Assembly (NCBI GenBank): GCA_013824645.1
Contig: PNOF01000004.1
Span: 1-64,000 of the forward strand
Reading direction: 5' to 3'
Origin: Syntrophus sp. (in: bacteria)
GTDB taxonomy: Bacteria > Desulfobacterota > Syntrophorhabdia > Syntrophorhabdales > Syntrophorhabdaceae
DNA: 64,000 nucleotides
Shown: one piece after another, positions 1,346 through 16,102 of the stretch
Numbering within the stretch: position 1 is the stretch's first letter
Layout: each line of letters opens with the position of its first letter
Made by a program: the position numbers and the translations under genes
The notes under the pieces: generated by a model
Seen by the model: the letters and a program-made list of their open reading frames with translations, nothing else
Told to the model about the DNA's origin: nothing
The model's database searches: none

Positions 1346-1380
1346 ATTCCCTTGCATTTACCCTCCCCCTTTGATAGCAT
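1346..1380 (+). repeat. Direct repeat A, copy 1 (upstream of DUF1016 gene)
   Basis: 35 bp beginning ATTCCCTTGCATTTAC and ending CCTTTGATAGCAT. It matches 3677-3711 at 30 of 35 positions by eye, and weaker similarity (GAAAA..., GATGGG...) continues for about 40 bp beyond both copies. The copies precede two different genes, which suggests a shared 5' region duplicated or moved as a cassette. Confidence 0.7.
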
Positions 1381-1439
1381 TAGAAAAAGCAACATTTGGG
1401 ATGGGGGATATATGGGGAAAGCGGTGCAACGAGGAAATA

Positions 1440-2555
1440 TTGAGTAAGTCGAAGCTCACCTTTGCCGGGCTTGTCGATTCCATCAAGGCGGTTGATACGC
1501 AACTGGCGCAGCAGGCGAGCAAGGCCATCAACATCAGTTTGACCCTGAGAAACTGGCTGATCGGCATGTATATCGCGGAGTATGAACAGAACGGCAAAGA
1601 CCGTGCTTCCTACGGAGATAAGTTGCTCGAGAATCTCTCTTCCACGCTGTTTAACTATGGTTTGAGCAGAGTCGAAGAACGGGAACTGAGGCGGTACCGT
1701 CAGTTTTACCAGACCTATCCACAAATTCGGGAGTCGCTGACTCCCGAATTAAGACAGAAATTAGCGAGCCCTTTCGGGATTGCTACCCGTGAAAAGCGGG
1801 AGTCAGCGACTCCCGAAACCGCTATTTCCGGCAAGGAGTTGATCAACAGACTCACCTTCACCCACATCGCAGAACTTCTGAAATGCGATGATCCGCTCAA
1901 GCGCGTCTTCTACGAAGTCGAATGTATCCGGGGTAACTGGTCGGTGCGGGAATTGAAACGCCAGATAGCAACGCTTTACTATGAGCGGTCCGGCCTTTCC
2001 ACAAACAAAAAGAAGCTTGCCGAACTTGTTCAATCAAACGTCGAATCGGCGGAGCCGAAGCTGACCATCCGTGACCCATACATTTTCGAGTTCCTAGGTC
2101 TCAAGGCAAAAGAGGTTATGGGTGAATCGCACCTTGAAGATGCACTGCTGGACAAGTTGCAGGACTTTCTCCTTGAACTGGGCCACGGCTTCTGTTTTGA
2201 GGCCCGTCAGAAACGCATTCTCATCGGTTCCAAGAACTGCTTTGTCGATTTGGTTTTCTATCACAGAATTCTCAAATGCCACGTATTGATCGAGTTGAAG
2301 ATCGATGAGTTCAACCACGAGCACATAGGCCAGCTCAATACTTACGTAAGCTGGTTCAAGGAAAACATGATGGCTAAAGGCGACAATCCTCCCGTAGGAA
2401 TCCTCCTTTGCACCGCAAAAGACCATACCTTCGTCGAATACGCCCTTGCAGGCATGACCAATAAACTCTTTGTTTCAAAGTACCAGTTGGAATTGCCGAA
2501 GAAAGAGGAGATGGAGCTGTTTATCGCGGAGCAGATGAAAGAGGTGCAGGGGTAA
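1440..2555 (+). CDS. DUF1016 / YhcG-type PDDEXK nuclease
   Basis: The protein has the two-part layout of the DUF1016 (YhcG) family: a helical N-terminal domain (LTFAGLVDSIKAVD... LRNWLIGMYIAEYE) and a C-terminal PDDEXK-like nuclease domain (FVDLVFYHRIL, then LIELKID). With a TTG start at 1440, the candidate catalytic residues are about D270 and E285-x-K287. GAGGAA at 1431 supports that start; ATG 1401 and TTG 1371 are open alternatives without a clear ribosome site. The family is common in defence and R-M neighbourhoods; its role is not settled. Two copies of one palindrome sit in the linker between the domains. Its last 33 codons are repeated at 3548-3649, after the next gene. Confidence 0.85.
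   Translation: MSKSKLTFAGLVDSIKAVDTQLAQQASKAINISLTLRNWLIGMYIAEYEQNGKDRASYGDKLLENLSSTLFNYGLSRVEERELRRYRQFYQTYPQIRESLTPELRQKLASPFGIATREKRESATPETAISGKELINRLTFTHIAELLKCDDPLKRVFYEVECIRGNWSVRELKRQIATLYYERSGLSTNKKKLAELVQSNVESAEPKLTIRDPYIFEFLGLKAKEVMGESHLEDALLDKLQDFLLELGHGFCFEARQKRILIGSKNCFVDLVFYHRILKCHVLIELKIDEFNHEHIGQLNTYVSWFKENMMAKGDNPPVGILLCTAKDHTFVEYALAGMTNKLFVSKYQLELPKKEEMELFIAEQMKEVQG
1724..1750. repeat. Gene-internal palindrome 1 in DUF1016 gene
   Basis: Perfect 12-bp arms (AATTCGGGAGTC and reverse complement) around a 3-nt centre GCT, in the coding region for IRESLTPEL. The core is repeated in reverse orientation 69 bp downstream. Confidence 0.9.
1797..1815. repeat. Gene-internal palindrome 2 in DUF1016 gene
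   Basis: Perfect 8-bp arms (CGGGAGTC / GACTCCCG) around AGC, coding for RESATPE. The arms equal the inner arms of the palindrome at 1724-1750, and the centre is its reverse complement. The centres are 69 bp (23 codons) apart. Confidence 0.9.
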
Positions 2556-2591
2556 TGGGATGGTAGAGCCGAAGCGGAGATGTGATGAAAT

Positions 2592-2618
2592 TTTGAAGTC
2601 ACAAATTGTGACTTCAAA
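2592..2618. promoter_or_regulatory. 27-bp perfect palindrome upstream of the ORF6N gene, operator candidate
   Basis: Arms of 13 bp (TTTGAAGTCACAA and its reverse complement) flank a single A. It ends 17 bp before the ORF6N start codon and just before the AAGGA ribosome site at 2621. It could be an operator for a dimeric regulator, possibly the ORF6N protein itself, or a hairpin controlling translation. No T-run follows, so an intrinsic terminator is unlikely. Confidence 0.65.
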
Positions 2619-2635
2619 TCGTAAGGAAAAAAAGT

Positions 2636-3535
2636 ATGGGCGGTAATACACTGGTAAGAAGCGAAGAAATCCGGAACAGGATTCACACCATTCGTGGCGT
2701 TCAAGTCATGTTGGATAAGGATTTGGCCGTTTTCTATGGCGTAAAACCCATCAGATTGCGAGAGCAGGTTAAAAGAAATATCAAACGTTTCCCTGTTGAT
2801 TTTATGTTTCAGCTTACGGAGAAAGAGGCCGAACTTATGGTATCGCAAAATGCGATACCATCAAAGCAATCCCTGGGCGGTTCCATGCCTTACGCTTTCA
2901 CGGAACAGGGGGTAGCAGCTATTTCTGCGGTGCTTACGAGCGAGAGGGCCATTATAGTCAACATCCAGATCATGCGGGCCTTTGTAGCCATGCGCCGGTT
3001 TATCGCCGTTAACGCTGAAGTGTTTCAACGCCTCGACGCTGTTGAAAGGAGACAGATTGAGGACAAGGTAGATGCTGATCATAAGTTTGAGCAGATATTC
3101 AATGCCATAGAGGAACAGAGCATAAAGCCAAAACAGGGTATCTTTTTTGAAGGGCAGGTTTTTGATGCTCATCAGTTTATCTCCGACTTGATTCGCACCG
3201 CCAGGAAATCAATTATTGTAATCGATAATTACATCGACGATACGGTATTGACGCTTCTTTCCAAGGCCGATAAGAAGGTAGCAATCACCATTCTCACAAA
3301 GACCGTTTCCAAACAGCTCGCCCTTGATGTAAAGAAATATAATGATCAATACCCGGCAATCACGATAAAAGAATTCCGTAACTCTCATGACAGGTTCTTC
3401 ATTATCGACGACAAAACCGTGTATCATTTCGGCGCATCTTTGAAAGACCTGGGCAAGAAATGGTTCGCCTTTTCCCGCTTCGATAAGGATGTCTTCAAGC
3501 TTCTGGAGAGACTGGAAGGGATGGTTGGTGAGTAG
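2636..3535 (+). CDS. ORF6N-domain protein with C-terminal PLD-like region
   Basis: A 299-residue protein. The N-terminal ORF6N domain (VRSEEIRNRIHTIRGVQVML... LREQVKRNIKRFP... MPYAFTEQGVAAISAVL) is a DNA-binding module known from phage antirepressor-like proteins. The C-terminal half (from about residue 175) contains ARKSIIVIDNYID and HDRFFIID near residue 251, the pattern of a phospholipase D-like fold, although the second HxK motif of a full PLD enzyme is not evident. AAGGA precedes the ATG. The gene is wedged between the DUF1016 gene and a copy of that gene's 3' tail. A perfect palindrome lies inside the ORF6N domain at codons 68-75. Likely role: regulator or effector tied to the neighbouring restriction-type genes. 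Confidence 0.85.
   Translation: MGGNTLVRSEEIRNRIHTIRGVQVMLDKDLAVFYGVKPIRLREQVKRNIKRFPVDFMFQLTEKEAELMVSQNAIPSKQSLGGSMPYAFTEQGVAAISAVLTSERAIIVNIQIMRAFVAMRRFIAVNAEVFQRLDAVERRQIEDKVDADHKFEQIFNAIEEQSIKPKQGIFFEGQVFDAHQFISDLIRTARKSIIVIDNYIDDTVLTLLSKADKKVAITILTKTVSKQLALDVKKYNDQYPAITIKEFRNSHDRFFIIDDKTVYHFGASLKDLGKKWFAFSRFDKDVFKLLERLEGMVGE
2837..2861. repeat. Gene-internal palindrome in ORF6N gene
   Basis: Perfect 11-bp arms (ATGGTATCGCA and reverse complement) around AAA, coding for MVSQNAIPS, directly before the conserved PYAFTEQG motif. The core GCAAAATGC resembles the ACAAAATGT core of the palindromes in both BroN genes. Confidence 0.9.
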
Positions 3536-3547
3536 GGGTAGAGGAAA

Positions 3548-3649
3548 ATGACGAACAAACTTTTCGTTTCCAAATACCAGTTGGAATTGCCGAAGAAAGA
3601 GGAAATGGAGCGGTTTGTCGCGGAGCAGATGAAAAAGGTACAGGAGTGA
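3548..3649 (+). pseudogene. Duplicated 3' tail of the DUF1016 gene
   Basis: These 34 codons (MTNKLFVSKYQLELPKK...KKVQE stop) match the last 33 residues and the stop of the DUF1016 product at all but five residues. There is no room for the rest of the gene. The fragment is a duplication scar marking the end of the cassette that carries the ORF6N gene. A second copy of direct repeat A follows at 3677. Confidence 0.85.
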
Positions 3650-3676
3650 AGGAACCAACCGTCATGGACATTCCAT

Positions 3677-3711
3677 ATTCCCTTGCATTTACAGCCGGCC
3701 TTTGATAGCAT
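3677..3711 (+). repeat. Direct repeat A, copy 2 (upstream of PLD-helicase gene)
   Basis: 30 of 35 bases match 1346-1380. It lies after the DUF1016 tail fragment and before the helicase gene, giving the order A, DUF1016, ORF6N, DUF1016 tail, A', helicase. Confidence 0.7.
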
Positions 3712-3794
3712 GTTGAAAACAATGTTTTTTGAGATGGGAAAGATGGGCGAAGCCTGTACTTCAAAACCATAGCCCAATACTGCCATGAGGTGTC

Positions 3795-6700
3795 GTGAAT
3801 ACTGATCTGACTTTTATCACGAACGAAAAAGGACAAAACCTCAAGAGTCGCTTTGAAACGCTCATAAAAGACACTCGTTTTTTCGATTGTCTCGTCGGTT
3901 ATTTCTACACCAGCGGTTTTTTTAATATCTATAAACCTCTCGAAAGCACAGAACGAATAAGGGTGTTGATCGGTATCAGTACAGATCGGCGCACCTTTGA
4001 TTTAATTGAAAAAGCGAAAGAGCCCTATCAGGCGGAACTTAAGCTTTCTCATGCTGAAGCCAAGGAGAAACTCGAAGGCGAAATAGAACAGGAGTTTGAG
4101 TATTCCGAGGATAACCAAAACATCGAGGAAGGGGTAGAGAAATTTATAGAATGGATACGTGACAAAAAGCTCCAGATAAGGGCTTATCCTTCAGATAAAA
4201 TCCACGCAAAGGTCTATATTATGACTTTTGCAGAAGATGACCGCGATGCGGGCCGTGTGATTACCGGTTCCAGCAATTTCACTCAAGCAGGGTTTGTCGA
4301 CAATCTGGAATTTAACGTGGAGTTAAAAAACCGGGCCGACTACAACTTTGCACTCGACAAGTTCAATGAACTGTGGGCCGATTCCGTCGATGTCGGCGAA
4401 AAATACATCGAGACCATCAAGACAAAAACATGGCTCAATCAGAATGTTACCCCCTATGAACTATACCTGAAATTCCTTTATGAGTATTTCAAGGACGAAC
4501 TCAACCTCACAGGTGAGACTTCTACCCGCTACCTGCCCGAAGACTTCAAGCAATTGGAATATCAGGAACAAGCCGTTCTTAACGCAAAGAAGATTCTTAT
4601 GGAATATTGGGGTGTCTTCATCTCCGATGTTGTTGGTCTCGGGAAAACGTACATTGCGGCCATGCTTGCCGGTCAGCTTGAGGGCAGGACCCTTGTGATT
4701 GCCCCGCCAGTTTTGCTCGACAAGAATAATCCCGGCTCGTGGTACAATGTCATGTCAGATTTTCGCGTCTCCTTCGATAGCGAATCAATCGGCCGGCTCG
4801 ACGATCTGCTGAAGAAAGGCGTTGAGAAGTATACCAACATCATTATTGATGAAGCCCATCGTTTCCGTACGGAGTCAAATGTAACATACGAGAAGTTGGC
4901 TGAGATATGCCGGGGGAAACGAGTGATTCTCGTCACTGCAACGCCCTATAACAATTCACCGCGAGATATTCTGAGTCAGATCAAGCTCTTTCAAAATGCC
5001 AAAAAAAGCATGATCCCAAACCTCCCCAACCTTGAAGCCTTTTTTGCCGGACTGGAAAAGAAACTGAAGAAACTTGACCGGCAGAAGGACCGCGAGGAAT
5101 TTATTGCAACAGTCAAGACAAATGCCAAAGAAATACGGGAAAGGGTATTGAAGTACCTTATGGTCCGCCGCACAAGGACGGAGATATTGAACTATTTTCC
5201 AGGGGACCTCGAACGACAGAAACTAAGATTCCCCGATGTGGAAGCCCCATCACCTCTTTTTTATGAGCTTGATGCTCATGAAGATGCGATCTTCAGCCGG
5301 ACCATAGAGCTTATTGCTCAGCGTTTCAAGTATATCCGTTACACGCCGATGCTCTATCTCAAAGAAAAGGTTGACCAACTCGAAAAACAGTCCCAGATCA
5401 ACATGATGAGTTTTATGAGAATTCTTCTTGTAAAGCGCCTTGAAAGCAGTTTTCATGCCTTCAGAAACTCAATTGACCGCTTCATCGGCTCCTATGAGAG
5501 ATTCATCCAGGAATACGACAAAGGCAGGGTATATCTCAGCAAGAAACATGCAAATAAGATATTCGATCTGCTGGAAAACGACGATGATGAGGCCATACAA
5601 CTGCTCATCGATGAAGGCAAAGCACAGGAATACAAAGCCTCTGACTTTAAAGATGATTTCCGACCGGCCCTGCAGAATGATCTTGATATCCTTAAAGAAG
5701 TCCGTGAAATGTGGTCGTCGATTACAAGAGACCCCAAGCTGCTGACCTTTCTGAAAGAGCTTCAAGAAAACCCGATCCTCAAAAAGAATAAACTTATTAT
5801 CTTCACAGAATCAAAAGAGACAGCCACGTACCTCGCGAACAATATTGATTCACACCTGAAAGGCTCTGTTCTTTCCTATCATGGTTCTTCCGGCGAAGAC
5901 GTGAGAGACAAGGTGATCGATAACTTCGACGCAAAGGTGCGGCATAAAAAAGACGATTACCGTATACTGGTCTCTACTGAGGTGCTCTCCGAAGGCGTCA
6001 ACCTTCACCGTGCCAATGTGGTTATCAACTATGACATCCCATGGAATCCGACACGCATGATGCAGCGCGTGGGACGGATAAACCGTGTCGATACGGCTTT
6101 TGACAAGATATATACCTTCAACTTTTTCCCCACGAAACAATCCAATGATCAGATCAAGCTCAAAGAGGCAGCAGAGGCTAAGATCAATGCCTTCCTGACC
6201 CTTCTTGGCGGGGATGCAGCGCTTCTTACAGAGGGAGAACCCATCGGCTCTCACGAGCTTTTCAACCGCCTTTTGAGCGTGCAATCAATTACCGGTGAAG
6301 ATAACGGCGAAGAGAGTGAGTTGAAGTACCTGCACCTCATCAAAACGATCCGTGATAAAGACCCCAATCTATTTGCGGCGATTAAACGTTTGCCGAAGAA
6401 GGCCCGCAGCGCACGCGAAAGCCAGGAACATCAAAAGCAACTCCTGACCTATTTCCGGCGCGACAAACTCCAGAAATTTTTTATTGCTGTCGATCTGGAC
6501 GAAGACGCTCAAGAACTTGATTTTCTTTCTGCCGCAAAGCTTCTTGAAACAACGCCCGAGATCGCCCGCAGTAAGACTAGCCCTGATTATTATGATCTGC
6601 TCGACAAAAACAAGGAGGCTTTCATCTTTACCACCACCGAAGGCATTCTTGAATCGGCATCTCGTGGTGGTCGAGACAGCGCAACACAGCTTTACCGTAT

Positions 6701-6992
6701 TCTGAAGGTGGTAATGAAGGATAGCCGTCGGCTCACGGAAGACCAGGAAGCATACATCAAAAGGGTGATGTTCAGGCTTGATGAGGGGGCGCTCCCCAAA
6801 CAGACCGCAAAAGAAGCGCTTAAGGTAGTCAATGATCTGAAAGGCGAAGCCATGACCAATTCGCTTAAGATACTTGGCGCTTTGCAATCATCTATCCCGG
6901 CAGGGCTCCTGGAAGGACATCGAGCCGGGCAGGTGGGTGCGCGCACGGGCAGACGGGAAGTGGTCCTGTCGCTTTATCTGGCTGAAACATAG
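3795..6992 (+). CDS. PLD-nuclease / SF2 helicase fusion protein
   Basis: 1065 residues starting at GTG after GAGG. The N-terminal phospholipase D-like domain shows HAKVYIM near residue 136 and GSSN near 157, the pattern of PLD-type nucleases. An SF2 helicase follows: GLGKT (Walker A) near 280, IIIDEAH near 350, TATPYNN near 378, and a C-terminal helicase domain with EVLSEGVNLHRA and QRVGRINRVD near 757. This layout is known from restriction-like and defence loci, where the motor moves on DNA and the PLD domain cuts it. It stands 10 bp before a BroN gene and about 1 kb before a large methyltransferase, so it may be the motor/nuclease subunit of that system. It is not an HsdR: no PDDEXK domain is seen. 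Confidence 0.85.
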   Translation: MNTDLTFITNEKGQNLKSRFETLIKDTRFFDCLVGYFYTSGFFNIYKPLESTERIRVLIGISTDRRTFDLIEKAKEPYQAELKLSHAEAKEKLEGEIEQEFEYSEDNQNIEEGVEKFIEWIRDKKLQIRAYPSDKIHAKVYIMTFAEDDRDAGRVITGSSNFTQAGFVDNLEFNVELKNRADYNFALDKFNELWADSVDVGEKYIETIKTKTWLNQNVTPYELYLKFLYEYFKDELNLTGETSTRYLPEDFKQLEYQEQAVLNAKKILMEYWGVFISDVVGLGKTYIAAMLAGQLEGRTLVIAPPVLLDKNNPGSWYNVMSDFRVSFDSESIGRLDDLLKKGVEKYTNIIIDEAHRFRTESNVTYEKLAEICRGKRVILVTATPYNNSPRDILSQIKLFQNAKKSMIPNLPNLEAFFAGLEKKLKKLDRQKDREEFIATVKTNAKEIRERVLKYLMVRRTRTEILNYFPGDLERQKLRFPDVEAPSPLFYELDAHEDAIFSRTIELIAQRFKYIRYTPMLYLKEKVDQLEKQSQINMMSFMRILLVKRLESSFHAFRNSIDRFIGSYERFIQEYDKGRVYLSKKHANKIFDLLENDDDEAIQLLIDEGKAQEYKASDFKDDFRPALQNDLDILKEVREMWSSITRDPKLLTFLKELQENPILKKNKLIIFTESKETATYLANNIDSHLKGSVLSYHGSSGEDVRDKVIDNFDAKVRHKKDDYRILVSTEVLSEGVNLHRANVVINYDIPWNPTRMMQRVGRINRVDTAFDKIYTFNFFPTKQSNDQIKLKEAAEAKINAFLTLLGGDAALLTEGEPIGSHELFNRLLSVQSITGEDNGEESELKYLHLIKTIRDKDPNLFAAIKRLPKKARSARESQEHQKQLLTYFRRDKLQKFFIAVDLDEDAQELDFLSAAKLLETTPEIARSKTSPDYYDLLDKNKEAFIFTTTEGILESASRGGRDSATQLYRILKVVMKDSRRLTEDQEAYIKRVMFRLDEGALPKQTAKEALKVVNDLKGEAMTNSLKILGALQSSIPAGLLEGHRAGQVGARTGRREVVLSLYLAET

Positions 6993-7002
6993 GGGGATAA
7001 GT

Positions 7003-7857
7003 ATGGAAGAAACCAAAATCGCACTATTCAAAGGCAAAGAGATTCGTAAAGTTCTTTATGAAAATGATTGGTGGTTCTCAATCGTCGATGTATGTGCTGT
7101 GTTGACCGACAGTGCGGATGCGGGAGCATACTGGCGGAAGTTGAAACAGAGACTCAACGAAGAAGGGGGCGAAGTCGTGACATTTTGTCACGGGTTGAAG
7201 TTGCTTGCCCCGGACGGCAAGTTCAGAGAAACAGACTGCGTCAACGCCGAAGGAATTTTTCGGATCATCCAGTCAATCCCTTCTCCAAAAGCTGAACCCT
7301 TCAAGCGCTGGCTGGCTAAAGTTGGCTATGAGCGCGTTCAGGAGATAGAAGACCCAGAATTGGCAACAAGAAGGACCCGGCTCCTCTACAAGCTCAAAGG
7401 GTATTCTGATGACTGGATAGAAAAGAGAATGCGGGGCATTGCAATCCGTGAAGAACTTACCGATGAATGGCAGAACCGTGGAGCGCAGGAAAAGAAGGAC
7501 TATGAGATTCTTACCGCTGAAATATCCAAGGCCGCCTTTGGGCTGACACCCACGGAATACAAGAAACATAAGGGTTTAAAGCGCGAGAACCTCCGTGATC
7601 ACATGGATGATTTTGAACTTATCTTTAACATGCTCAGTGAACGTTCCACAACAGAGATCCACCGTACTGAAGATTCGCAGGGCATCAAGAAGCTGAAAGA
7701 AGATGCGAAAGCGGGCGGCAATATCGCAGGAAATGCCCGAAAACAGTTAGAAAAGAGACTCGGCAGACCCATTGTTTCCAAGACTAACTATTTGAGAAAA
7801 CCAGAGGAACAAAAAAAACTGCCTGAAAAAAAGAAGAATAACCCTACAGGGCGCTAA
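7003..7857 (+). CDS. BroN-domain protein (phage antirepressor-like), copy 1
   Basis: 284 residues from the ATG that follows AGGGGG; an upstream in-frame start at 6874 would overlap the helicase gene and is rejected. The N-terminal Bro-N domain runs IALFKGKEIRKVLYENDWWFSIVDVCAVL... IIQSIPSPKAEPFKRWLAKVGYERVQE. The C-terminal half (YEILTAEISKAAFGLTPTEYKKHKG... LRDHMDDFELIFNMLSE) is the usual partner of bacterial BroN proteins; the basic Lys-rich tail fits DNA contact. BroN proteins bind DNA; the cellular role of this subgroup is unknown. It sits between the helicase and the methylase, suggesting a link to the restriction-type system. A palindrome lies at codons 58-64. A second copy is at 15245. 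Confidence 0.85.
   Translation: MEETKIALFKGKEIRKVLYENDWWFSIVDVCAVLTDSADAGAYWRKLKQRLNEEGGEVVTFCHGLKLLAPDGKFRETDCVNAEGIFRIIQSIPSPKAEPFKRWLAKVGYERVQEIEDPELATRRTRLLYKLKGYSDDWIEKRMRGIAIREELTDEWQNRGAQEKKDYEILTAEISKAAFGLTPTEYKKHKGLKRENLRDHMDDFELIFNMLSERSTTEIHRTEDSQGIKKLKEDAKAGGNIAGNARKQLEKRLGRPIVSKTNYLRKPEEQKKLPEKKKNNPTGR
7176..7192. repeat. Gene-internal palindrome in BroN gene 1
   Basis: Perfect 7-bp arms (CGTGACA and reverse complement) around TTT, coding for VVTFCHG. On the minus strand the core reads ACAAAATGT, identical to the core in BroN gene 2 at the same codons, while the outer bases differ but still pair. Confidence 0.85.
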
Positions 7858-7980
7858 AAAGAGAATAAAAAAAGAAGGCATTGCCGCGGGACGGAACCCT
7901 TTGGTTTGCCTCCTATCGTGATTATGCAAAAAGTGTAATAGGATACGATAAAAAAGTCAATGAATTTAAAAGGCTGACAC

Positions 7981-10900
7981 GTGGACAGAGACCAGGCGCA
8001 ACGCAATGTCAGGGAGACCCTTGAGGGTCCTTTCGAGAAAGGCAGGTTTACCCTTTTCGTCAAGAACCTCCTCAACTCAATCGAAGACGCCCCTTTTTCC
8101 TATAAGGGCAACTTACTTCCCGATGCTTACGACCAATACATAAGCACCCTTGAACGTATCGGTAAATATTCCAATGGTGAACACAAGATTGACATCCTTG
8201 TAGTGAAGCTCAAAAAAGAGACTTCCATCGACCGTGCCCGCACTATGCAGAGAAATTTCATCGCCTGGTATCTGAATGGCAGCCGTGGCGGGGAACAGAA
8301 GGATGCGGCACTCGTTGCCTTTGTTTCACCCGATCAGGAAGACTGGCGTTTTTCTCTTGTCAGGATGGACTACCGCTTCGAAGAAGGTAAAAACGGCAAG
8401 ATAAAGGCCAAAGAGGAATTTACCCTTGCCCGCAGGTGGTCTTTTCTCGTCGGCGCAAATGAAACCAGCCATACCGCTCAGAGCCGCCTTGTTCCTATCA
8501 TGGCCGATGACGAGTATAACCCCACGCTTTCCCGCCTTGAAGCAGCCTTTAACATTGAAACAGTCACGAAGGAATTTTTTGAGAAATACCGGGAACTCTT
8601 TCTCTGGACAAAGGAAATCCTCGACAGTATTATTTCTGAAAACAAAATGGTAGAGACCGACTTTGCCGCTAAAGGCGTAAACACCATAGATTTCGCGAAG
8701 AAGCTCCTCGGTCAGATTGTCTTCCTCTATTTTCTCCAGAAAAAAGGCTGGTTCGGCGTTGGCCGTGATGCGGACTGGGGCACAGGTCCGAAAAGCTTCC
8801 TCCGCGAGCTTTTTGCAGGCAAACATGGAACATACGCCAATTTTTTTAACGACATACTGGAACCCCTCTTCTACGAGGCCCTGGCCCGTGAACGGGACGG
8901 TGATTTTTACAGTCGCTTCAACTGCAAAATCCCCTTTCTCAACGGCGGTCTCTTCGATCCCATAGGAGGTTATGACTGGGTGCATACGGATATTTTTCTG
9001 CCTGACGAACTATTCTCCAATAGTCATAAAACAAAAGAGGGAGATACGGGAAAGGGCATTCTCGACATCTTTGACCGTTACAATTTTACCGTCAAGGAGG
9101 ATGAGCCCCTCGAAAAAGAGGTTGCTGTTGACCCTGAAATGCTCGGCAAGGTCTTTGAAAACCTGTTGGAGGTAAAAGACCGCAAGTCAAAGGGCACTTA
9201 CTATACGCCCCGCGAAATTGTCCACTACATGTGCAGGCAGAGCCTCATCAATTACCTTGAAACCCAATTGAACGGCCCTGTTGTTGCTTATGAGATGATG
9301 GGCAATGAGCAACTGGACATGTTCGGCAACGATGCGAAAACAGGCCAACTCGATTTGACGATAGAGCACAGATCAGCCCCTGCCATCCCGAAAGAAGACA
9401 TAGAGAAGCTCATTCAAACAGGCGAGCAGTTTGGCGAGAACGATGCAATTGCCCTTGAGAAGGAACAGAGAATTATTGAAGGGAGACAGAAAACCTCCAC
9501 GAAAAAAACCATGCTCCCCGACAGCATCAGAGAACAGGCGAAACTGATCGATGACAAACTCGCCGCCATAAAGGTTTGCGATCCTGCTATCGGAAGCGGT
9601 GCATTCCCTGTGGGTATGATGGGTGAGATCGTCAAGACACGCAATGTCCTTTCCATCTTTATCAAAGAACCAAACCGGACCTCCTATCACTTCAAGCGTG
9701 AATGTATCGAAAAATCGCTTTATGGTGTGGACATAGATCCCGGCGCAGTGGAGATCGCGAAACTGCGTCTCTGGCTCTCCCTTGTTGTCGATGAGGACGA
9801 TATCCGCGAGATCAAACCCCTGCCGAACCTTGATTATAAAATCGTCTGTGGCAATTCACTGGGAAGCGCCAGTTGGGATGTATGGGACAATAAGCTTTTC
9901 AAGGAACTGGAATCTCTGAAGATGCGGTACTTCGACGAAACGAGTCCGGGACGGAAAAAAGAGGAGAAGGCCCGTATCGATGAGCTGATCCAGCGCATTA
10001 CCCATAACGAGCAACAATTCGATTATAAAATCTTCTTCAGTGAAGTATTTGACCACGGCAATGGTTTTGATGTCGTCATTGCAAACCCGCCCTATGTGCG
10101 GCAGGAAGCCATAAAAGCATTGAAGCCCATGCTTGCGAAAGAGTTCAGGGAATTCTATTGCGGCACCGCTGACCTCTACACCTATTTTTACAAGCGGGGC
10201 CTTCAAAACTTGAGGACCGGCGGCCACCTCTGTTTTATCGCACCCAACAAGTTCATGCGGGCAGGATACGGAAAGAACACCCGTGAGCTGTTGGCGCAAA
10301 AGGCAACATTGAAAGCAGTCATCGACTTCTGCGACCTGCCCATTTTTGATGCCACCACCTATCCCTCAATCCTTCTCGTGGAGAACCGGCTTCCGGTTAA
10401 AGAGCAAACGACACTGGCGGCCACCTTTACCGATGCGGCCCAACTGGAGCGGATAGAAGAGACCCTTGATGCCGTGGGTTTCCCCATGCCCCTTACTGCC
10501 CTCAGAAAGGAAGGCTGGACCCTTGAGCCTCCGCAAGTTCTGGCCCTCATGGAAAAGCTCCGTAAGGCAGGAACACCTCTCGGCGAATATGTGAAGGGCA
10601 GGTTTTACTATGGTATCAAGACTGCTCTCAATGAAGCATTCGTCATCGACGAGGTAACGAAAGAATGCCTTATCGCCGAAGACCCCAAAAGCGCCGAGCT
10701 TATCAAGCCCTGGCTGCGTGGCCGGGACATTAAGAGATGGAAAGCTCAGTGGGCGGGACTATACCTCATTACCATTCCCAGCAGCGCAAACAGAAAATGG
10801 CCCTGGTCAAATTCTAAAACAGAACAAACAGCTCGCACTATCTTTGAAAAAACATATCCGGCTATCCATTGCCACCTCTCACAATGGGAAGATAAACTCA

Positions 10901-11364
10901 AAAAGCGTGACGATCAAGGACAATACTGGTGGGAGCTGAGGTCGTGCGCCTATTATGAGGAGTTTGATGGACCGAAGATCATTTATCCGAACATCACAAA
11001 GAAAAACGTATTTGCTTTTGATACGACCGGATGGTTTACAAATCAGAAGTGTTTCATAATCCCCACCAGTGATCTCTGCCTACTTTCCGTCCTTAATTCA
11101 AAAGTGGGTCTGCAATGGTTCACTAAGGCCTTGCCGCTATTGCGTGGCGGATTCTTCGAGCCAAGTGCCATATTTATGAAGGACTTTCCAGTGCCCTCAG
11201 CCACCGACACTCAGCGAGCCCCCATCATCACCCTTGTTGAGCGCATCCTTGCGGACCGCGATTCCCCCGATATCCGTCGCCTCGAAGCCGAAATCAACCG
11301 CCTCGTCTACGACCTCTACAACCTCACCCCCGACGAAATCGCCATCGTTGAAGGAGGCAAGTAA
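7981..11364 (+). CDS. Large Eco57I / type IIG-like DNA adenine methyltransferase
   Basis: 1127 residues from a GTG start with AAGG about 8 bases upstream. The N-terminal 200 residues (RDQAQRNVRETLEGPF... KIDILVVKLKK) may be a nuclease-like or targeting domain. The methylase core shows KGTYYTPREIVHYM near residue 402, DPAIGSGAFPVGMM (SAM-binding motif I) near 534, and IANPPYVR (catalytic NPPY, N6-adenine type) near 701. The C-terminal part (KPWLRGRDIKRW... GGFFEPS) is a TaqI-C/Eco57I-like target recognition region. Known members modify adenine and may also cut. The stop overlaps the TcmP start (TAATG). With the PLD-helicase it could form a complete restriction-modification system. Confidence 0.88.
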   Translation: MDRDQAQRNVRETLEGPFEKGRFTLFVKNLLNSIEDAPFSYKGNLLPDAYDQYISTLERIGKYSNGEHKIDILVVKLKKETSIDRARTMQRNFIAWYLNGSRGGEQKDAALVAFVSPDQEDWRFSLVRMDYRFEEGKNGKIKAKEEFTLARRWSFLVGANETSHTAQSRLVPIMADDEYNPTLSRLEAAFNIETVTKEFFEKYRELFLWTKEILDSIISENKMVETDFAAKGVNTIDFAKKLLGQIVFLYFLQKKGWFGVGRDADWGTGPKSFLRELFAGKHGTYANFFNDILEPLFYEALARERDGDFYSRFNCKIPFLNGGLFDPIGGYDWVHTDIFLPDELFSNSHKTKEGDTGKGILDIFDRYNFTVKEDEPLEKEVAVDPEMLGKVFENLLEVKDRKSKGTYYTPREIVHYMCRQSLINYLETQLNGPVVAYEMMGNEQLDMFGNDAKTGQLDLTIEHRSAPAIPKEDIEKLIQTGEQFGENDAIALEKEQRIIEGRQKTSTKKTMLPDSIREQAKLIDDKLAAIKVCDPAIGSGAFPVGMMGEIVKTRNVLSIFIKEPNRTSYHFKRECIEKSLYGVDIDPGAVEIAKLRLWLSLVVDEDDIREIKPLPNLDYKIVCGNSLGSASWDVWDNKLFKELESLKMRYFDETSPGRKKEEKARIDELIQRITHNEQQFDYKIFFSEVFDHGNGFDVVIANPPYVRQEAIKALKPMLAKEFREFYCGTADLYTYFYKRGLQNLRTGGHLCFIAPNKFMRAGYGKNTRELLAQKATLKAVIDFCDLPIFDATTYPSILLVENRLPVKEQTTLAATFTDAAQLERIEETLDAVGFPMPLTALRKEGWTLEPPQVLALMEKLRKAGTPLGEYVKGRFYYGIKTALNEAFVIDEVTKECLIAEDPKSAELIKPWLRGRDIKRWKAQWAGLYLITIPSSANRKWPWSNSKTEQTARTIFEKTYPAIHCHLSQWEDKLKKRDDQGQYWWELRSCAYYEEFDGPKIIYPNITKKNVFAFDTTGWFTNQKCFIIPTSDLCLLSVLNSKVGLQWFTKALPLLRGGFFEPSAIFMKDFPVPSATDTQRAPIITLVERILADRDSPDIRRLEAEINRLVYDLYNLTPDEIAIVEGGK

Positions 11365-12524
11365 TGTCAGATGATTTTTTTAAACAAAAACGAGTATGGT
11401 CAAAATACAAAGACTTTATCCTTGATTACTATTTGACACCATATCTTGAAAAGGTCAAGTACTTACAAAAGCCGATTTGTATTATAGACTGCTGTGCCGG
11501 ACCGGGGAGTTTCGAAGATGGGTCTGACGGATCGCCTTTGATCATTGCCAAACACATCCAGGGCTTGTACAACAGGCACGTTAATATAAAAGGTCTGTTC
11601 TTGGAAAAGCAAAAGAGGCTTTTCTCCAGACTTCAGAAGAATCTTGAACCGTACAGCGCCTTTGTGGAAGCAAAACACGTTGATTTCAGGAATTATCTGG
11701 ACGATATCAGATCAATGGCAAGATCAAGCACGGTCTTCCTCTACGTAGACCCCTATGGAATAAAGGAACTGCCGTTTTCTGAACTTTCTGAGATTTATAG
11801 AACAATCATCGAACACAATTCGAGCGTCGAGGTTTTACTGAATTTTAATAGTGCTGCATTCGTCAGATGTGCCCTGGTGGCCCTCAAAATGGACAGGCAA
11901 GGCTTTGATTCCGAGGAAGGTGACGACGAAGAGAGTTTTTGTGGTGCGGAGGGCATGTCAACAGAGCAAATGGATGTAATAGCTGGCGGTAGCTATTGGA
12001 AAGAAATAGTGTCTGCTCCAGAACTTACATTTCTTGAAAAAGAGGAGAAAATTACTGAATCCTATATGAAACAAATGAACGACTATTTTCGAATAGTCCG
12101 CAATTACCCAGTGCAACATAAATACGGGCGGTTGCCTAAGTACAGGCTTATTTATGGGACCAGACATGAAGACGGTATTTTGCTGATGAATGAGACCATG
12201 TATAAGGCGAGGGAGCAGTTTCTGAAGGAGGAGTTCTTTGACGGGCGGCTTTTTGATGAGCGACCACTTGCAGAATCCAAGGATATTTCGTTGTTTGCAA
12301 CAAGACTCTTTGAGATAGTCAGAGAAGGTGGACCCACATCAAGAAGGAATTTGAAATTAGTAGCCATGAAGGAGTTCTTTTGCTGTTATAATAACAGTGA
12401 TTATTCAAAGACCGTTGAGAAGCTGCTGAAAGGTTTCGAAGGAATGAAACTTTACAGCCGCTCCGGGAAGCCAAGGATTAATGATGATGAATCACTCTCA
12501 GCAAAGCCTTTTAAACAACACTGA
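11364..12524 (+). CDS. tcmP: Three-Cys-motif partner protein TcmP
   Basis: 386 residues, recognised as TcmP-like by the N-terminal FFKQKRVWSKYKDFILDYYLTPYL, the loop IIDCCAGPGSFEDGSDGSP, and VFLYVDPYGIKELPF. These look like a Rossmann methyltransferase with a SAM loop (DxCAGPG) and a DPYG motif in place of the DPPY of DNA methylases. The family is named for its partnership with three-Cys-motif proteins; activity has not been assigned with confidence. Its ATG overlaps the methylase stop and its 3' end overlaps the radical SAM gene by 44 bases, so the three are probably translated together. It may modify DNA, RNA or a partner protein; this is inference. Confidence 0.82.
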   Translation: MSDDFFKQKRVWSKYKDFILDYYLTPYLEKVKYLQKPICIIDCCAGPGSFEDGSDGSPLIIAKHIQGLYNRHVNIKGLFLEKQKRLFSRLQKNLEPYSAFVEAKHVDFRNYLDDIRSMARSSTVFLYVDPYGIKELPFSELSEIYRTIIEHNSSVEVLLNFNSAAFVRCALVALKMDRQGFDSEEGDDEESFCGAEGMSTEQMDVIAGGSYWKEIVSAPELTFLEKEEKITESYMKQMNDYFRIVRNYPVQHKYGRLPKYRLIYGTRHEDGILLMNETMYKAREQFLKEEFFDGRLFDERPLAESKDISLFATRLFEIVREGGPTSRRNLKLVAMKEFFCCYNNSDYSKTVEKLLKGFEGMKLYSRSGKPRINDDESLSAKPFKQH

Positions 12525-13587
12525 CATAAATCCCTTGGTTTCTGAACTCTGGGCTCTCCGTGACAAATGTGACAAGAAAAGGGCTGAAGAGATTGCCGAA
12601 CGGTCACATATTCCTCTCAGATGGATTGATAAAGCGCCGTCCCCCAACGGGGAGAAAGGTATCGAAAAGCTCCTGGCAGAAAGGGGAGTGCTCCTGCTTC
12701 GCAATCGAACCAGTCCTTTTATTGAGCAATTCCAACACCCCATCGGACGGTGTGCCAAGTTCTATAAACTCACTGCATACAACAACTGCAATTTCTGGTG
12801 CGAGTATTGTTATCTTTATTTAACTTTTCGCACGAATCCTATTTCGACACATTTCGTGAATTATGAAAAGATATTCAAAGAGATAGTAGCCTTCGATAAA
12901 AGCGATATACCGGACACCTTGCGAGTCCTTAATCTTGGAGAACTCTGCGATCCCCTGGCGGTCGAGGATATTACCGGATTTGCTGAAGAACTCATACCTT
13001 TTGCAGCGGAACACACCGTACGAACAAGATTACTCTTTCTCACAAAGAGTGACAACATCAAAGGATTGCTTCAACTACCTCACGGCGGAAAATCCATTAT
13101 ATCTTTCAGCGTCAATACCGATAAGGTTTATCGTCATCTTGAACATCGAACAGCGCCACCTGAAGCTCGTTTGTTGGCCGCGCAACGATTACAGAAGGCA
13201 GGATATGAAATACGTTTGCGTATTGACCCGATTATCATTTACGAAGGGTGGCAGGAGGATTATATCGGTCTTGTGGATACCATCTTCCGATATGTGCAAC
13301 CGACACGCATTACCATAGGAGAATACAGACCATCCAGGGGCTTGGTGAGCCATATTGGATCGCGCTTCCCGGAATCTGCTTTATTACAAATTAATGATGG
13401 GCTTGTAAGCGATGGGACCAAGCTTCGGTATCCGGAAAAGAAACGTGTCGCTGCTTTCCGGGCCATAATCGATAGAATCAGGCAACAGAATTCTGAATTA
13501 CCGATAAGTCTATGCAAGGAAAACCCGGCGATCTGGAAACAACTCGATATGATGATAAACGGATTGCACTGTAATTGTTTGGGATAA
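12481..13587 (+). CDS. SPL-like radical SAM protein
   Basis: 368 residues. The 4Fe-4S motif CNFWCEYC (Cys 103, 107, 110; CX3CX2C) lies in YKLTAYNNCNFWCEYCYLY, a setting like spore photoproduct lyase-family radical SAM proteins. The barrel continues with VLNLGELCDPLAVEDITG, FLTKSDNI, ISFSVNTDKVYRHLEHRTAPP and IRLRIDPIII. The end CKENPAIWKQLDMMINGLHCNCLG carries further Cys that could bind a metal. SPL itself repairs UV lesions in DNA; this protein's substrate is unknown. It overlaps tcmP and lies 13 bp before the Shedu gene. ATG codons at 12481, 12484 and 12487 are all possible after AAGGA. DNA repair or modification tied to the defence operon is the likeliest role. Confidence 0.8.
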   Translation: MMMNHSQQSLLNNTDINPLVSELWALRDKCDKKRAEEIAERSHIPLRWIDKAPSPNGEKGIEKLLAERGVLLLRNRTSPFIEQFQHPIGRCAKFYKLTAYNNCNFWCEYCYLYLTFRTNPISTHFVNYEKIFKEIVAFDKSDIPDTLRVLNLGELCDPLAVEDITGFAEELIPFAAEHTVRTRLLFLTKSDNIKGLLQLPHGGKSIISFSVNTDKVYRHLEHRTAPPEARLLAAQRLQKAGYEIRLRIDPIIIYEGWQEDYIGLVDTIFRYVQPTRITIGEYRPSRGLVSHIGSRFPESALLQINDGLVSDGTKLRYPEKKRVAAFRAIIDRIRQQNSELPISLCKENPAIWKQLDMMINGLHCNCLG

Positions 13588-13600
13588 GGAGGGTAACTTC

Positions 13601-14590
13601 GTGCAAGAAATCCAAACGTCAAAAAGTGGTAAAGATTATCTCTCTGCCATTCTAAGAGACAGAGCTACTGTTATTACGAGAGCCTTCTTTTGGAAGATCT
13701 TTCACGCAAGCGGAGATGCGGATATAGCACTTAAAGTGGGCAGATATCGAAAGGTTAAAGGAAGATATGATTTTGAAATTCCAGAAACGAATCAACCAAA
13801 AAGCGAATTGACGCTTGATGATGAAGAGTTCCACAAATTGGTTGAATTTGTCCAAGAGAATTATGAGCCTTTCAAAATAGGAGTTCGTCAATACGTGCCG
13901 ATTAATTCTACTTTTGACCAAACCAGCATAGAACACTTGAAAGCAGTTTTTGACAACCCTGAAAAACAAGAATTGCTGGAATTTATCATTGAACATAACA
14001 TCATTCATCGTGATTTGGTGCTGGGGCTGGTAAACCGGCAACGAGTGAAAGCTATCGAGCAGTTTGAAGAAATGCTTGACAATAATTTGGTCGAGCATAA
14101 GTGGCAAAAATGGTTCGAGGAGAATTCATGGGTCTTGGGAACGGAATTTGTCCGAGTATTAGATGAGAGGGAGATTGATACCGAGAACATTGCTGATTTT
14201 CTGGTCGAGGCTTACGATGGCTTTCTTGACATAGTTGAAATAAAACGACCGGAAGGCGATTTAAATTTTTGGCAGGACAAGAAAGATCATAAAAATTATG
14301 TTCCTTCGTCTGATCTTGTCAGAGCAATAACTCAAGCATCCAGTTACATTTATGAAATAGAGCGGGAAGCGAACAGTGTCAAATTTCTTGAACGGGTCGA
14401 TCATGTTAAGACTGTTAAACCCCGTTGTATTCTGATATTTGGGCGGTCATATGATTGGGATAACGAAAAGAATGAATCCTACCGGATTCAAAACTCTCTT
14501 TACCACAACTTGAGCATTCTCACGTATGATCACGTGATAGACAGGGCAAAGCGAATCTGCGGTATGGTAACGGGACAGAAGTGTCTATGA
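13601..14590 (+). CDS. sduA: Shedu-type defence nuclease (SduA, DUF4263)
   Basis: 329 residues from a GTG with AAGGAGG 7 bases upstream. The C-terminal DUF4263 domain is clear: HKWQKWFEENSWVLGTEFV, then FLVEAYDGFLDIVEIKRPEGD, with D and ExK residues of a PDDEXK nuclease near residues 206-215, and VRAITQASSYIYEIE. Shedu is a known single-gene anti-phage system whose SduA cuts DNA. The N-terminal 150 residues vary in this family and are thought to sense the trigger. The close spacing after the radical SAM gene puts it in the methylase-tcmP-radical SAM operon, which is unusual for Shedu, so control by or cooperation with its neighbours is possible. Confidence 0.87.
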   Translation: MQEIQTSKSGKDYLSAILRDRATVITRAFFWKIFHASGDADIALKVGRYRKVKGRYDFEIPETNQPKSELTLDDEEFHKLVEFVQENYEPFKIGVRQYVPINSTFDQTSIEHLKAVFDNPEKQELLEFIIEHNIIHRDLVLGLVNRQRVKAIEQFEEMLDNNLVEHKWQKWFEENSWVLGTEFVRVLDEREIDTENIADFLVEAYDGFLDIVEIKRPEGDLNFWQDKKDHKNYVPSSDLVRAITQASSYIYEIEREANSVKFLERVDHVKTVKPRCILIFGRSYDWDNEKNESYRIQNSLYHNLSILTYDHVIDRAKRICGMVTGQKCL

Positions 14591-14659
14591 GCGCAGATTT
14601 GTGGGGGTTAATTATTGTCCTTTTCATTGGTTGAGAACTTTTGGAGAGGTATAGATGGC

Positions 14660-14884
14660 ATGCTAATGGATAATATGTCTTTTCGGTGTGATGCTCATGT
14701 CAATGTCCTCAAACATGTCACCAATCTCCCGGAACTCAAAGACAACTGGAGCGACGAACAGAAGCTTGCCGCCATCGAAAAAGTCCACAAAGAACTCTCC
14801 GACCCGGCCCATCCGGTATCCATCGCCATGACCAAAATGCAAGACATCCCCGAAATCCGCATCATCGAAGGCGAGAAGCGCTGA
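14660..14884 (+). CDS. Small hypothetical protein, translationally coupled to DUF3800 fragment
   Basis: 74 residues from an ATG with GGAGAGG about 10 bases upstream; longer starts (TTG 14615) lack support. I do not recognise the family. The sequence is hydrophilic and mostly helical (LPELKDNWSDEQKLAAIEKVHKEL, then IPEIRIIEGEKR). Its stop overlaps the ATG of the DUF3800-like frame (TGATG), so the two were probably expressed as a pair, perhaps toxin-antitoxin-like. The pairing now looks dead because the second gene is broken. Confidence 0.5.
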   Translation: MLMDNMSFRCDAHVNVLKHVTNLPELKDNWSDEQKLAAIEKVHKELSDPAHPVSIAMTKMQDIPEIRIIEGEKR

Positions 14885-15235
14885 TGTTATTTCTGTATCT
14901 CGATGAAAGTGGCGATCTTGGTTTTGATTTTGTTAGTAAGAAACCGTATATCTACCGGATAAATAAAAAAGAGCGTGCCTTACGGGCTTTCTATGTCGAA
15001 GCTCATGCCAACCGATGGATGGGAGCACTTCGAACAACCCATAACGGACTCACCGCTCACCAATATTCTAATGGTTTTGCACAGAATGTCAAGGACAAAA
15101 GAGCAGAGGGTTCGTTATCGCATAGTACTGGATTTCATTATCAACTATGACATCAATACCGCATGGGCAATGAATTGGAGGGGGACGAAGGACAATGAAA
15201 ACTCTGTTATGGGGGATACAGATTTTAAATCATAG
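14884..15235 (+). pseudogene. Broken DUF3800 gene
   Basis: The frame opens with MLFLYLDESGDLGFDF, the N-terminal signature of DUF3800 proteins (Asp-rich, RNase H-like predicted). It loses resemblance after about 22 residues and ends at 15150, far short of the roughly 200 or more residues of the family. A second + frame (from about 14975) runs on to 15235 with protein-like text (RVRYRIVLDFIINYDINTAWAMNW), suggesting a frameshift plus deletion or fusion. No functional product is expected. Confidence 0.6.
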
Positions 15236-15244
15236 GGGGATAAA

Positions 15245-16102
15245 ATGAAGGAAACATCATTGGCTGTTTTTGAAGGGAAACAAATACGCCGTTATTATGA
15301 CGAAGACACAGAAACATGGTATTTCTCTGTAGTGGATATTATCCAGGTGCTGATACAACAACCCGAATACCAAGCCGCGAGAAATTACTGGAAGGTCCTG
15401 AAAAACCGCTTGAACAAAGAAGGAAGTGAAACGGTTACAAAATGTAACCGGTTGAAGATGGTCGCAGATGACGGCAAAATGCGTCTTACGGACGCTGCTG
15501 ATCCTGAAACGCTCCTCCGCCTTATACAATCAGTTCCCAGCCCTAAAGCAGAGCCGATCAAACTCTGGCTGGCCAAGGTGGGCTACGAACGGATGCAGGA
15601 TATGGCAGACCCGGCGCGGTCTTTGGACAGGGCACGTGAATACTGGCAACAGCATGGCAGAAGTGAGAAATGGATTCAACAGCGGATGATGGGACAGGAA
15701 ACCCGCAACAAGCTGACCGACTACTGGAAAGACCACGACATAAAAAAAGAAGAGGAATATGCCATCCTGACAAATATAATTCATCGGGAGTGGGCTGGAG
15801 TTACCGTAAAGAAACACAAGGAAATGAAAGGTCTGAAAACACAAAATCTCAGAGACCATATGAGCGAGGCTGAACTGATCTTTACCGCCCTTGCCGAACT
15901 TTCCACCCGCCAGATAGCTGAGAGCGTAGAGGCCATCGGCATGGATGAGAATGCAATTGCCGGAAAGAAAGGTGGAGGTATTGCCAAAAGGGCAAGGCGA
16001 GAACTGGAGGCAAAAACAGGAAAGAAGGTTATTACCGGGGACAATTATCTCCCTCCGGGTACAAGAAAGGCATTGCAAAAGAAACATGATGATGGGAAAT
16101 GA
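15245..16102 (+). CDS. BroN-domain protein, copy 2
   Basis: 285 residues, a divergent relative of the product at 7003-7857 with the same order: Bro-N domain (LAVFEGKQIRRYYDEDTETWYFSVVDIIQVL... LIQSVPSPKAEPIKLWLAKVGYERMQD) and the C-terminal half (YAILTNIIHREWAGVTVKKHKE... LRDHMSEAELIFTALAE). The ATG follows an AGGGGG site, as in copy 1. The C-terminus GGGIAKRARRELEAKTGKKVITGDNYLPP parallels the other copy. A palindrome lies at the same codons as in copy 1. Just downstream is a methylase C-terminal remnant, so this is probably the surviving part of a second BroN-methylase unit. Confidence 0.85.
   Translation: MKETSLAVFEGKQIRRYYDEDTETWYFSVVDIIQVLIQQPEYQAARNYWKVLKNRLNKEGSETVTKCNRLKMVADDGKMRLTDAADPETLLRLIQSVPSPKAEPIKLWLAKVGYERMQDMADPARSLDRAREYWQQHGRSEKWIQQRMMGQETRNKLTDYWKDHDIKKEEEYAILTNIIHREWAGVTVKKHKEMKGLKTQNLRDHMSEAELIFTALAELSTRQIAESVEAIGMDENAIAGKKGGGIAKRARRELEAKTGKKVITGDNYLPPGTRKALQKKHDDGK
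15432..15450. repeat. Gene-internal palindrome in BroN gene 2
   Basis: Perfect 8-bp arms (CGGTTACA and reverse complement) around AAA, coding for TVTKCNR. It aligns with the palindrome of BroN gene 1 (VVTFCHG): same core, different but self-complementary flanks. Confidence 0.88.

Follow-up and report, generated by a model that had tools for sequence, protein, structure and literature searches.

Palindromes within BroN, ORF6N and related mobile genes are candidate binding sites for the genes' own proteins

Autoregulation has long been known, and intragenic operators exist. The C proteins of restriction-modification (R-M) systems are small mobile autoregulators found near R-M genes, with C-box operators upstream of the gene. 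LacI is reported to exert negative autoregulation through a transcriptional roadblock at the operator O3, which lies in or beside the gene of the repressor itself (PMC3711431). Rickettsia palindromic elements are described as selfish inserts of about 100-150 nucleotides (nt) that lie between genes as well as in RNAs and coding genes (PMC4316617). Here we report on short palindromes inside genes of the BroN, ORF6N, RhuM, DinD and YhcG/DUF1016 families, including two BroN genes and one ORF6N gene in a 64,000-nt stretch of a Syntrophus sp. contig (PNOF01000004.1, positions 1 to 64,000), hereafter the window. We consider these palindromes, with a probability of roughly 0.7, to be dyad-symmetric double-stranded DNA sites for each gene's own protein, most likely used for negative autoregulation.

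A sequence-only reading of the window had reported three palindromes in these genes, and all three are present exactly (Table 1). Their common core, CAAAATG, is read from the plus strand for BroN2 and ORF6N but from the minus strand for BroN1. The two BroN palindromes occupy identical codon positions (peptides VTFCH and VTKCN), and the outer bases differ yet pair, as that reading noted; in all three genes they also track residues of the gene's own recognition helix. Family membership is secure, since both BroN proteins lie over the curated cut-off of the PF02498 profile (51.4 and 33.5 bits; cut-off 25.6) and the ORF6N protein scores 102.9 bits against a PF10543 cut-off of 27.8. Just three places in the window reach a palindrome score of at least 10 (1724-1750, 2592-2618 and 2837-2861), and the BroN palindromes are singly modest. 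Their weight comes from relatives; the window score alone is unremarkable.

Palindromes scoring at least 10 were found in 211 of 358 open reading frames (ORFs) of the five families, compared to 11 of 482 control ORFs, where they were scattered and several resembled terminators in doubtful ORFs. By family the counts were 54/112 for BroN, 83/99 for ORF6N, 29/57 for RhuM, 15/26 for DinD and 30/64 for DUF1016. Shuffling of synonymous codons reduced them to 3/336, 3/297, 4/171, 4/78 and 1/192, respectively (0.5-5%). This comparison of orthologues with chance had been named beforehand as the refuting test, and the palindromes came through it. They are real and beyond chance, and each family has its fixed spot.

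ORF6N sites resemble TTTGAGGT-NN-CAAWTTG-NN-ACCTCAAA and lie about 18-20 codons ahead of a PYAFTEQG motif, sometimes in tandem. A pattern that left the NN positions free matched in 32 of 297 genomes, with most free positions complementary, while a reversed control gave zero matches. Virulence_RhuM sites (AACT-NNNNN-GAATTTC-NNNNN-AGTT-like) fall on ATIRNFRIV codons, DinD sites are even-centred on HFADVSKM codons, and DUF1016 sites are AATT-NNNNNNN-C-NNN-G-NNNNNNN-AATT-like. Three ORF6N genes (L202, L184 and L117) carry two or three in-frame tandem palindromic units with differing arms. Some ORF6N-type palindromes (L190, L191 and L194) do not belong to an intact ORF6N gene and lie between genes or in what look like gene remnants; in one contig, two identical 25-base-pair (bp) copies lie 2,261 bp apart. 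Among carriers that can be cultured is Geobacter argillaceus ATCC BAA-1139 (L054), with a 29-bp site.

The pairing of the arms was followed most closely in BroN. Among the best 80 of at least 556 relatives of BroN2, genes 77-88% identical occur in genomes titled Nitrospirae, Deltaproteobacteria, Planctomycetota, Elusimicrobia, Actinomycetota and Sporomusaceae, and in the archaea Methanoperedens, Argoarchaeum and Thermoplasmata; few relatives were on viral contigs. In codon order the motif reads Val-Thr-x-Cys followed by His, Asn or Tyr, and the outer codons change in pairs: GTG with CAC, GTT with AAC, GTA with TAC, apart from a single GTT-CAC (L030). On viral contigs ACT pairs with AGT and TCG with CGA. 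Quite different peptides at the same place (VTKCNRL, QLYEKIVQL, GWGQIATPL, LSTICRQL, LTTKCSQL) are all encoded palindromically, in a comparison where 17 of 105 rows were unanchored. Across 97 distinct BroN ORFs the site centre ranked best of 709 centres, with 88% of cells paired (mean over centres 24%, standard deviation 9%). At offset 11 from the centre, two synonymous bases (the third base of Glu or Gln and the first base of Leu) were complementary in 97 of 97 ORFs: GAG or CAG always accompanied CTG, and GAA or CAA always TTG, with zero exchange. Compensating changes in the arms, for which the sequence-only reading had proposed a test, are present, and the BroN arms are conserved as a palindrome and not as a sequence.

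We then asked which protein positions follow the arm bases. Only genes scoring at least 7 at the site entered the code tables (BroN 99/112; ORF6N 66/99, of which 65 were then used; RhuM 46/57; DinD 23/26; DUF1016 41/64), so that the codes are conditional on a palindrome being present. Away from the palindrome codons, the columns that best tracked the arms in ORF6N, RhuM and BroN lay in the helix that precedes the wing. In ORF6N (n=65), 32 genes combined Gln with A, 16 Glu with G and 10 Arg or Lys with C, leaving 7 others; in RhuM (n=46), Glu went with G in 21, Gln, Met or Leu with A in 12 and Arg or Lys with C in 8, with 5 others; in BroN (n=99), Val-T accounted for 54 and Lys or Arg with G for 35, with 10 others. 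In textbook helix-base chemistry, Gln goes with A, Glu lies opposite C, Arg or Lys go with G, and Val goes with T. The pairings in our tables match this chemistry and fit readout of DNA in the major groove.

The putative contacts are also ordered: counting alignment columns from the palindrome, ORF6N residue -58 goes with offset 4 and -62 with offset 7, while in RhuM offset 4 is matched by residues -22/-19 and offset 7 by residue -24. When every column was scanned, those of the helix came first for ORF6N and RhuM offsets 4, 5 and 7 and for BroN and DinD offset 5. At BroN offset 5 they took ranks 1-4 (3e-21 to 6e-13; next column 6e-4), and at ORF6N offset 7 column -62 reached 7e-13 (next 2e-3). 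RhuM without residue classes gave a weaker signal (1.6e-5 at offset 4), and DinD (n=23) agreed at offset 5 alone.

FastTree trees were built with the palindrome columns and the named helix columns left out. On them, residue and base switched on the same branch 14 times in ORF6N (21 residue and 19 base changes; hypergeometric p 6e-10), 14 times in RhuM (18 and 16; 4e-11) and 22 times in BroN (27 and 27; 8e-20), p values for columns preselected by association, which must be discounted for the choice among some 150-290 columns at each of a few offsets. Moreover, the tracked base is often synonymous. In most BroN genes (84/99) offset 5 falls on the third position of a Val codon: helix Val accompanied GTT in 53 genes and GTA in 3, helix Lys accompanied GTG in 27 and a gap GTG in 1, none being crossed. 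In most ORF6N genes (51/65) offset 4 falls on the third position of a Ser codon, with Gln and TCA in 30, Glu and TCG in 15, Glu and TCA in 1, and 5 other rows.

The code was applied to held-out RhuM genes on plasmids, 19 of the 40 listed among 124 plasmid records that matched RhuM. A palindrome scoring at least 5 was found near the site in 18 of the 19; three genes had helix residues outside the code, and the base was correctly called in 14 of 15 callable genes. Three plasmid RhuM genes (L352, L357 and L359) sit between hsdM and hsdS of type I R-M operons. The outer bases of the window palindromes likewise follow the protein: Lys46 with G5 in BroN1, Val51 with T5 in BroN2, and Glu43 with G4 plus Ile39 with A7 in ORF6N. 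In another record (L071:1419-1447), a BroN-type palindrome follows a promoter-like stretch and immediately precedes a BroN gene; it has G at offset 5, mismatching that gene's Val-type helix.

In an AlphaFold2 model of BroN2 built from 25 sequences (mean predicted local distance difference test, pLDDT, 84.6), helices span residues 29-37 and 42-58 and a hairpin, the wing, pairs 68-73 with 79-85; the palindrome codons fall between helix and hairpin. A single-sequence model of ORF6N was poor. The top Foldseek match of the BroN2 model in the PDB was DdrC (7udi, 8u0g, 7qvb; E value 1e-6), a dimeric DNA-binding protein of Deinococcus radiodurans, at a low identity of 15-17%. In blastn, DNA similarity of BroN2 to its relatives starts at about 15234, no more than some 11 nt ahead of the ATG, and does not reach past the ORF. 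The shared DNA is the ribosome-binding region plus the ORF, although a few pairs of other relatives share more. Promoters thus appear to be mostly not shared, and a site within the ORF would be an operator that the gene always takes along. In the 2.6-Mb, 88%-complete assembly, the exact arms of the BroN1, BroN2 and ORF6N sites each occur once, within their own gene, and near matches are at the control rate.

We propose that in the N-terminal DNA-binding domain a recognition helix precedes a wing formed by a beta-hairpin, with the self-site in the codons between them. Covariation suggests that single helix residues read single base pairs of both arms, so that helix and site would have to change together. 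Since the genes wander singly, the reader of the site is expected to travel with the gene, and is most probably the gene's own product. A self-site inside the ORF would let a promoterless wandering gene bring its own operator: a dimer bound some 200 bp from the start of the gene may block elongating RNA polymerase and cap expression wherever the gene lands, and such autoregulation would need no particular promoter. Binding, dimerisation and repression are all predicted steps. We lean, by a narrow measure, towards the broader proposal that these families embed their product's only genomic site beside the wing codons, so that reader and address form one promoterless unit with joint switches of specificity, and that binding to itself, not control of a regulon, is the protein's main task.

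Several results weigh against self-recognition. The helix columns were chosen after looking, the plasmid RhuM genes being the sole held-out test, and among these one base was wrong (L360, whose palindrome is possibly off site) and one gene (L370) had no palindrome. Helix columns did not lead at offset 6 of RhuM and BroN or at offsets 3, 4 and 6 of DinD, and ORF6N offset 8 was led by a column after the palindrome, in an RRYLP stretch that is probably the wing. The helix analysis of DUF1016 yielded no clear code; the one column that did best at offsets 8 and 9 lay in an NLxxMRxFY helix (n=28, a column association without a tree). A residual-distance correlation was strong against label permutation and unexceptional against pseudo-arms from elsewhere in the genes, which gave a higher top value in 17/289, 32/151 and 68/262 cases; the case therefore rests on the trees, the synonymous codons and the held-out genes. 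Paralogues in one genome did not have more distinct sites than expected (5 of 46 pairs identical, 4.1 expected), and the idea that they must avoid each other's site was dropped. Finally, matches to a gene's own site were no commoner upstream of BroN, ORF6N and RhuM genes than matches to other genes' sites (DinD, with few genes, 3/23 compared to 6.5%). A classical autoregulator with a promoter operator is accordingly rejected for these three families, and repression would need to act inside the gene.

The strongest alternative, which we regard as unlikely, is that the protein binds its own gene for mobility or copy control (recognising itself when the gene is transferred, acting in a homing-like way or excluding a rival copy) and not for transcription. 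The occurrence of similar genes in very distant phyla and archaea, the restriction of shared DNA to ribosome-binding site and ORF, the uniqueness of each tested site in its genome and the location in defence or R-M loci would all suit such a role. Yet neither a recombinase nor conserved gene ends were found, no insertion event was seen, and DUF1016 alone among the families has a nuclease domain.

An mRNA hairpin acting in translational control or processing, possibly protein-bound, is improbable. Covarying arms of 8-15 bp with short loops would suit one, and the sequence-only reading had listed a regulatory hairpin among its options. A hairpin should tolerate G.U pairs, but mismatches on the sense strand of the five families, small in number, were 12 of G.U type and 27 of A.C type, with no excess of G.U. 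Moreover, RhuM pairing reaches the centre (offset 1 is paired in 41 of 46 sites), DinD sites are even-centred, and the helix code suits major-groove readout. More doubtful still is mutational upkeep, in which hairpin-templated copying during replication keeps the arms matched without function, akin to the rewriting of both arms that the same reading had suggested. The arms do remain paired as the sequence drifts, and tandem 27-nt copies occur in some ORF6N genes, but a DNA-copying process predicts no link between the arms and a protein residue some 15-30 codons away, and it leaves the family-fixed places and the rarity in control ORFs unexplained. Helix-wing packing with the palindrome as a by-product is practically negligible although the site codons adjoin the wing, because helix residues predict synonymous codons, synonymous sites covary with each other, and codon shuffles destroy the palindrome, in line with the earlier remark that coding constraint alone does not preserve pairing. 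Thus, of the three functions first offered, the protein binding site is the one favoured, by the helix code, the same-branch switches, the synonymous codons and the plasmid calls.

The palindrome just upstream of the ORF6N gene and the pair in the DUF1016 gene are additional to those of the sequence-only reading. The bases of the former fit a Gln/Lys-type ORF6N and not the adjoining gene; it is probably what is left of a different ORF6N gene. The 3' end of DUF1016 recurs downstream of ORF6N as a direct repeat of 105 nt with 87% identity (2454-2558 and 3548-3652), as though insertion of the ORF6N gene had come with a partial duplication. The region 1371-16102 is a defence-island setting with a YhcG nuclease, ORF6N, a PLD-helicase, BroN1, an Eco57I-type methylase, a gene without Pfam match (11364-12524), an SPL-like gene, a Shedu SduA_C protein and BroN2.

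Table 1. Palindromes, genes and predicted recognition helices in the window
Feature	Position	Strand	Basis
BroN1 gene, Bro-N domain protein, 284 amino acids	7003..7857	+	Pfam PF02498, E 1.7e-13
BroN1 intragenic putative self-site CGTGACATTTTGTCACG, dyad 7184, G at offset 5	7176..7192	.	single-copy arms in assembly; helix code
BroN1 predicted recognition-helix codons; Lys46 (7138-7140) predicts G at offset 5	7111..7161	+	homology with BroN2 model
BroN2 gene, 285 amino acids	15245..16102	+	Pfam PF02498
BroN2 intragenic putative self-site CGGTTACAAAATGTAACCG, dyad 15441, T at offset 5	15432..15450	.	arm pairing across relatives; single-copy arms
BroN2 predicted recognition-helix codons, residues 42-58; Val51 (15395-15397) predicts T at offset 5	15368..15418	+	AlphaFold2 model; helix code
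ORF6N-domain gene, 299 amino acids	2636..3535	+	PF10543, E 1.2e-29; weak C-terminal PLD-like match, PF13091 under cut-off
ORF6N intragenic putative self-site ATGGTATCGCAAAATGCGATACCAT, dyad 2849, G at offset 4, A at offset 7	2837..2861	.	single-copy arms; helix code
ORF6N predicted recognition-helix codons; G at offset 4 predicted by Glu43 (2762-2764), A at offset 7 associated with Ile39 (2750-2752)	2744..2779	+	alignment; no confident structure
DUF1016_N / YhcG PDDEXK nuclease gene	1371..2555	+	PF17761, PF06250
Palindrome AATTCGGGAGTCGCTGACTCCCGAATT within DUF1016 gene	1724..1750	.	window palindrome scan
Second DUF1016-gene palindrome, reverse complement of 1726-1746	1797..1817	.	
ORF6N-type palindrome, intergenic between DUF1016 and ORF6N genes; A at offset 4, G at offset 7	2592..2618	.	

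If the proposed self-binding holds, poorly understood mobile families (BroN, ORF6N, RhuM, DinD and perhaps YhcG) gain a DNA target that is open to testing and is legible in the gene itself, and offer a natural record of a DNA-binding protein and its palindromic site shifting specificity jointly, repeatedly and on both arms. The base-reading code could be used for prediction, and genomes alone would reveal an amino acid-to-base code. It also suggests how promoterless single genes may control themselves after horizontal transfer, including within R-M operons. We found no published link between these palindromes and these families, nor any family described in print with a self-site in wing-adjoining codons that co-evolves with the recognition helix, in a search that covered subscription journals thinly.

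The C proteins are alike as small mobile autoregulators near R-M genes and differ by their upstream C-box operators. LacI at O3 resembles the present case in that a DNA-binding protein has a palindromic site, here a putative one, in or at its own gene, and in that an elongation block is a plausible mode of action. It differs in that the sites described here have a fixed place beside the wing codons in at least four families, have no enriched promoter copy, and have switched together with the helix many times. Like the Rickettsia palindromic elements, they are in-frame palindromes within protein-coding genes. A selfish insert of that type was rejected, since such an insert would be about 100-150 nt long and spread over many unrelated genes; the palindromes reported here span 17-35 bp, are concentrated in certain families, and have arms whose bases track the recognition helix encoded by the same gene.

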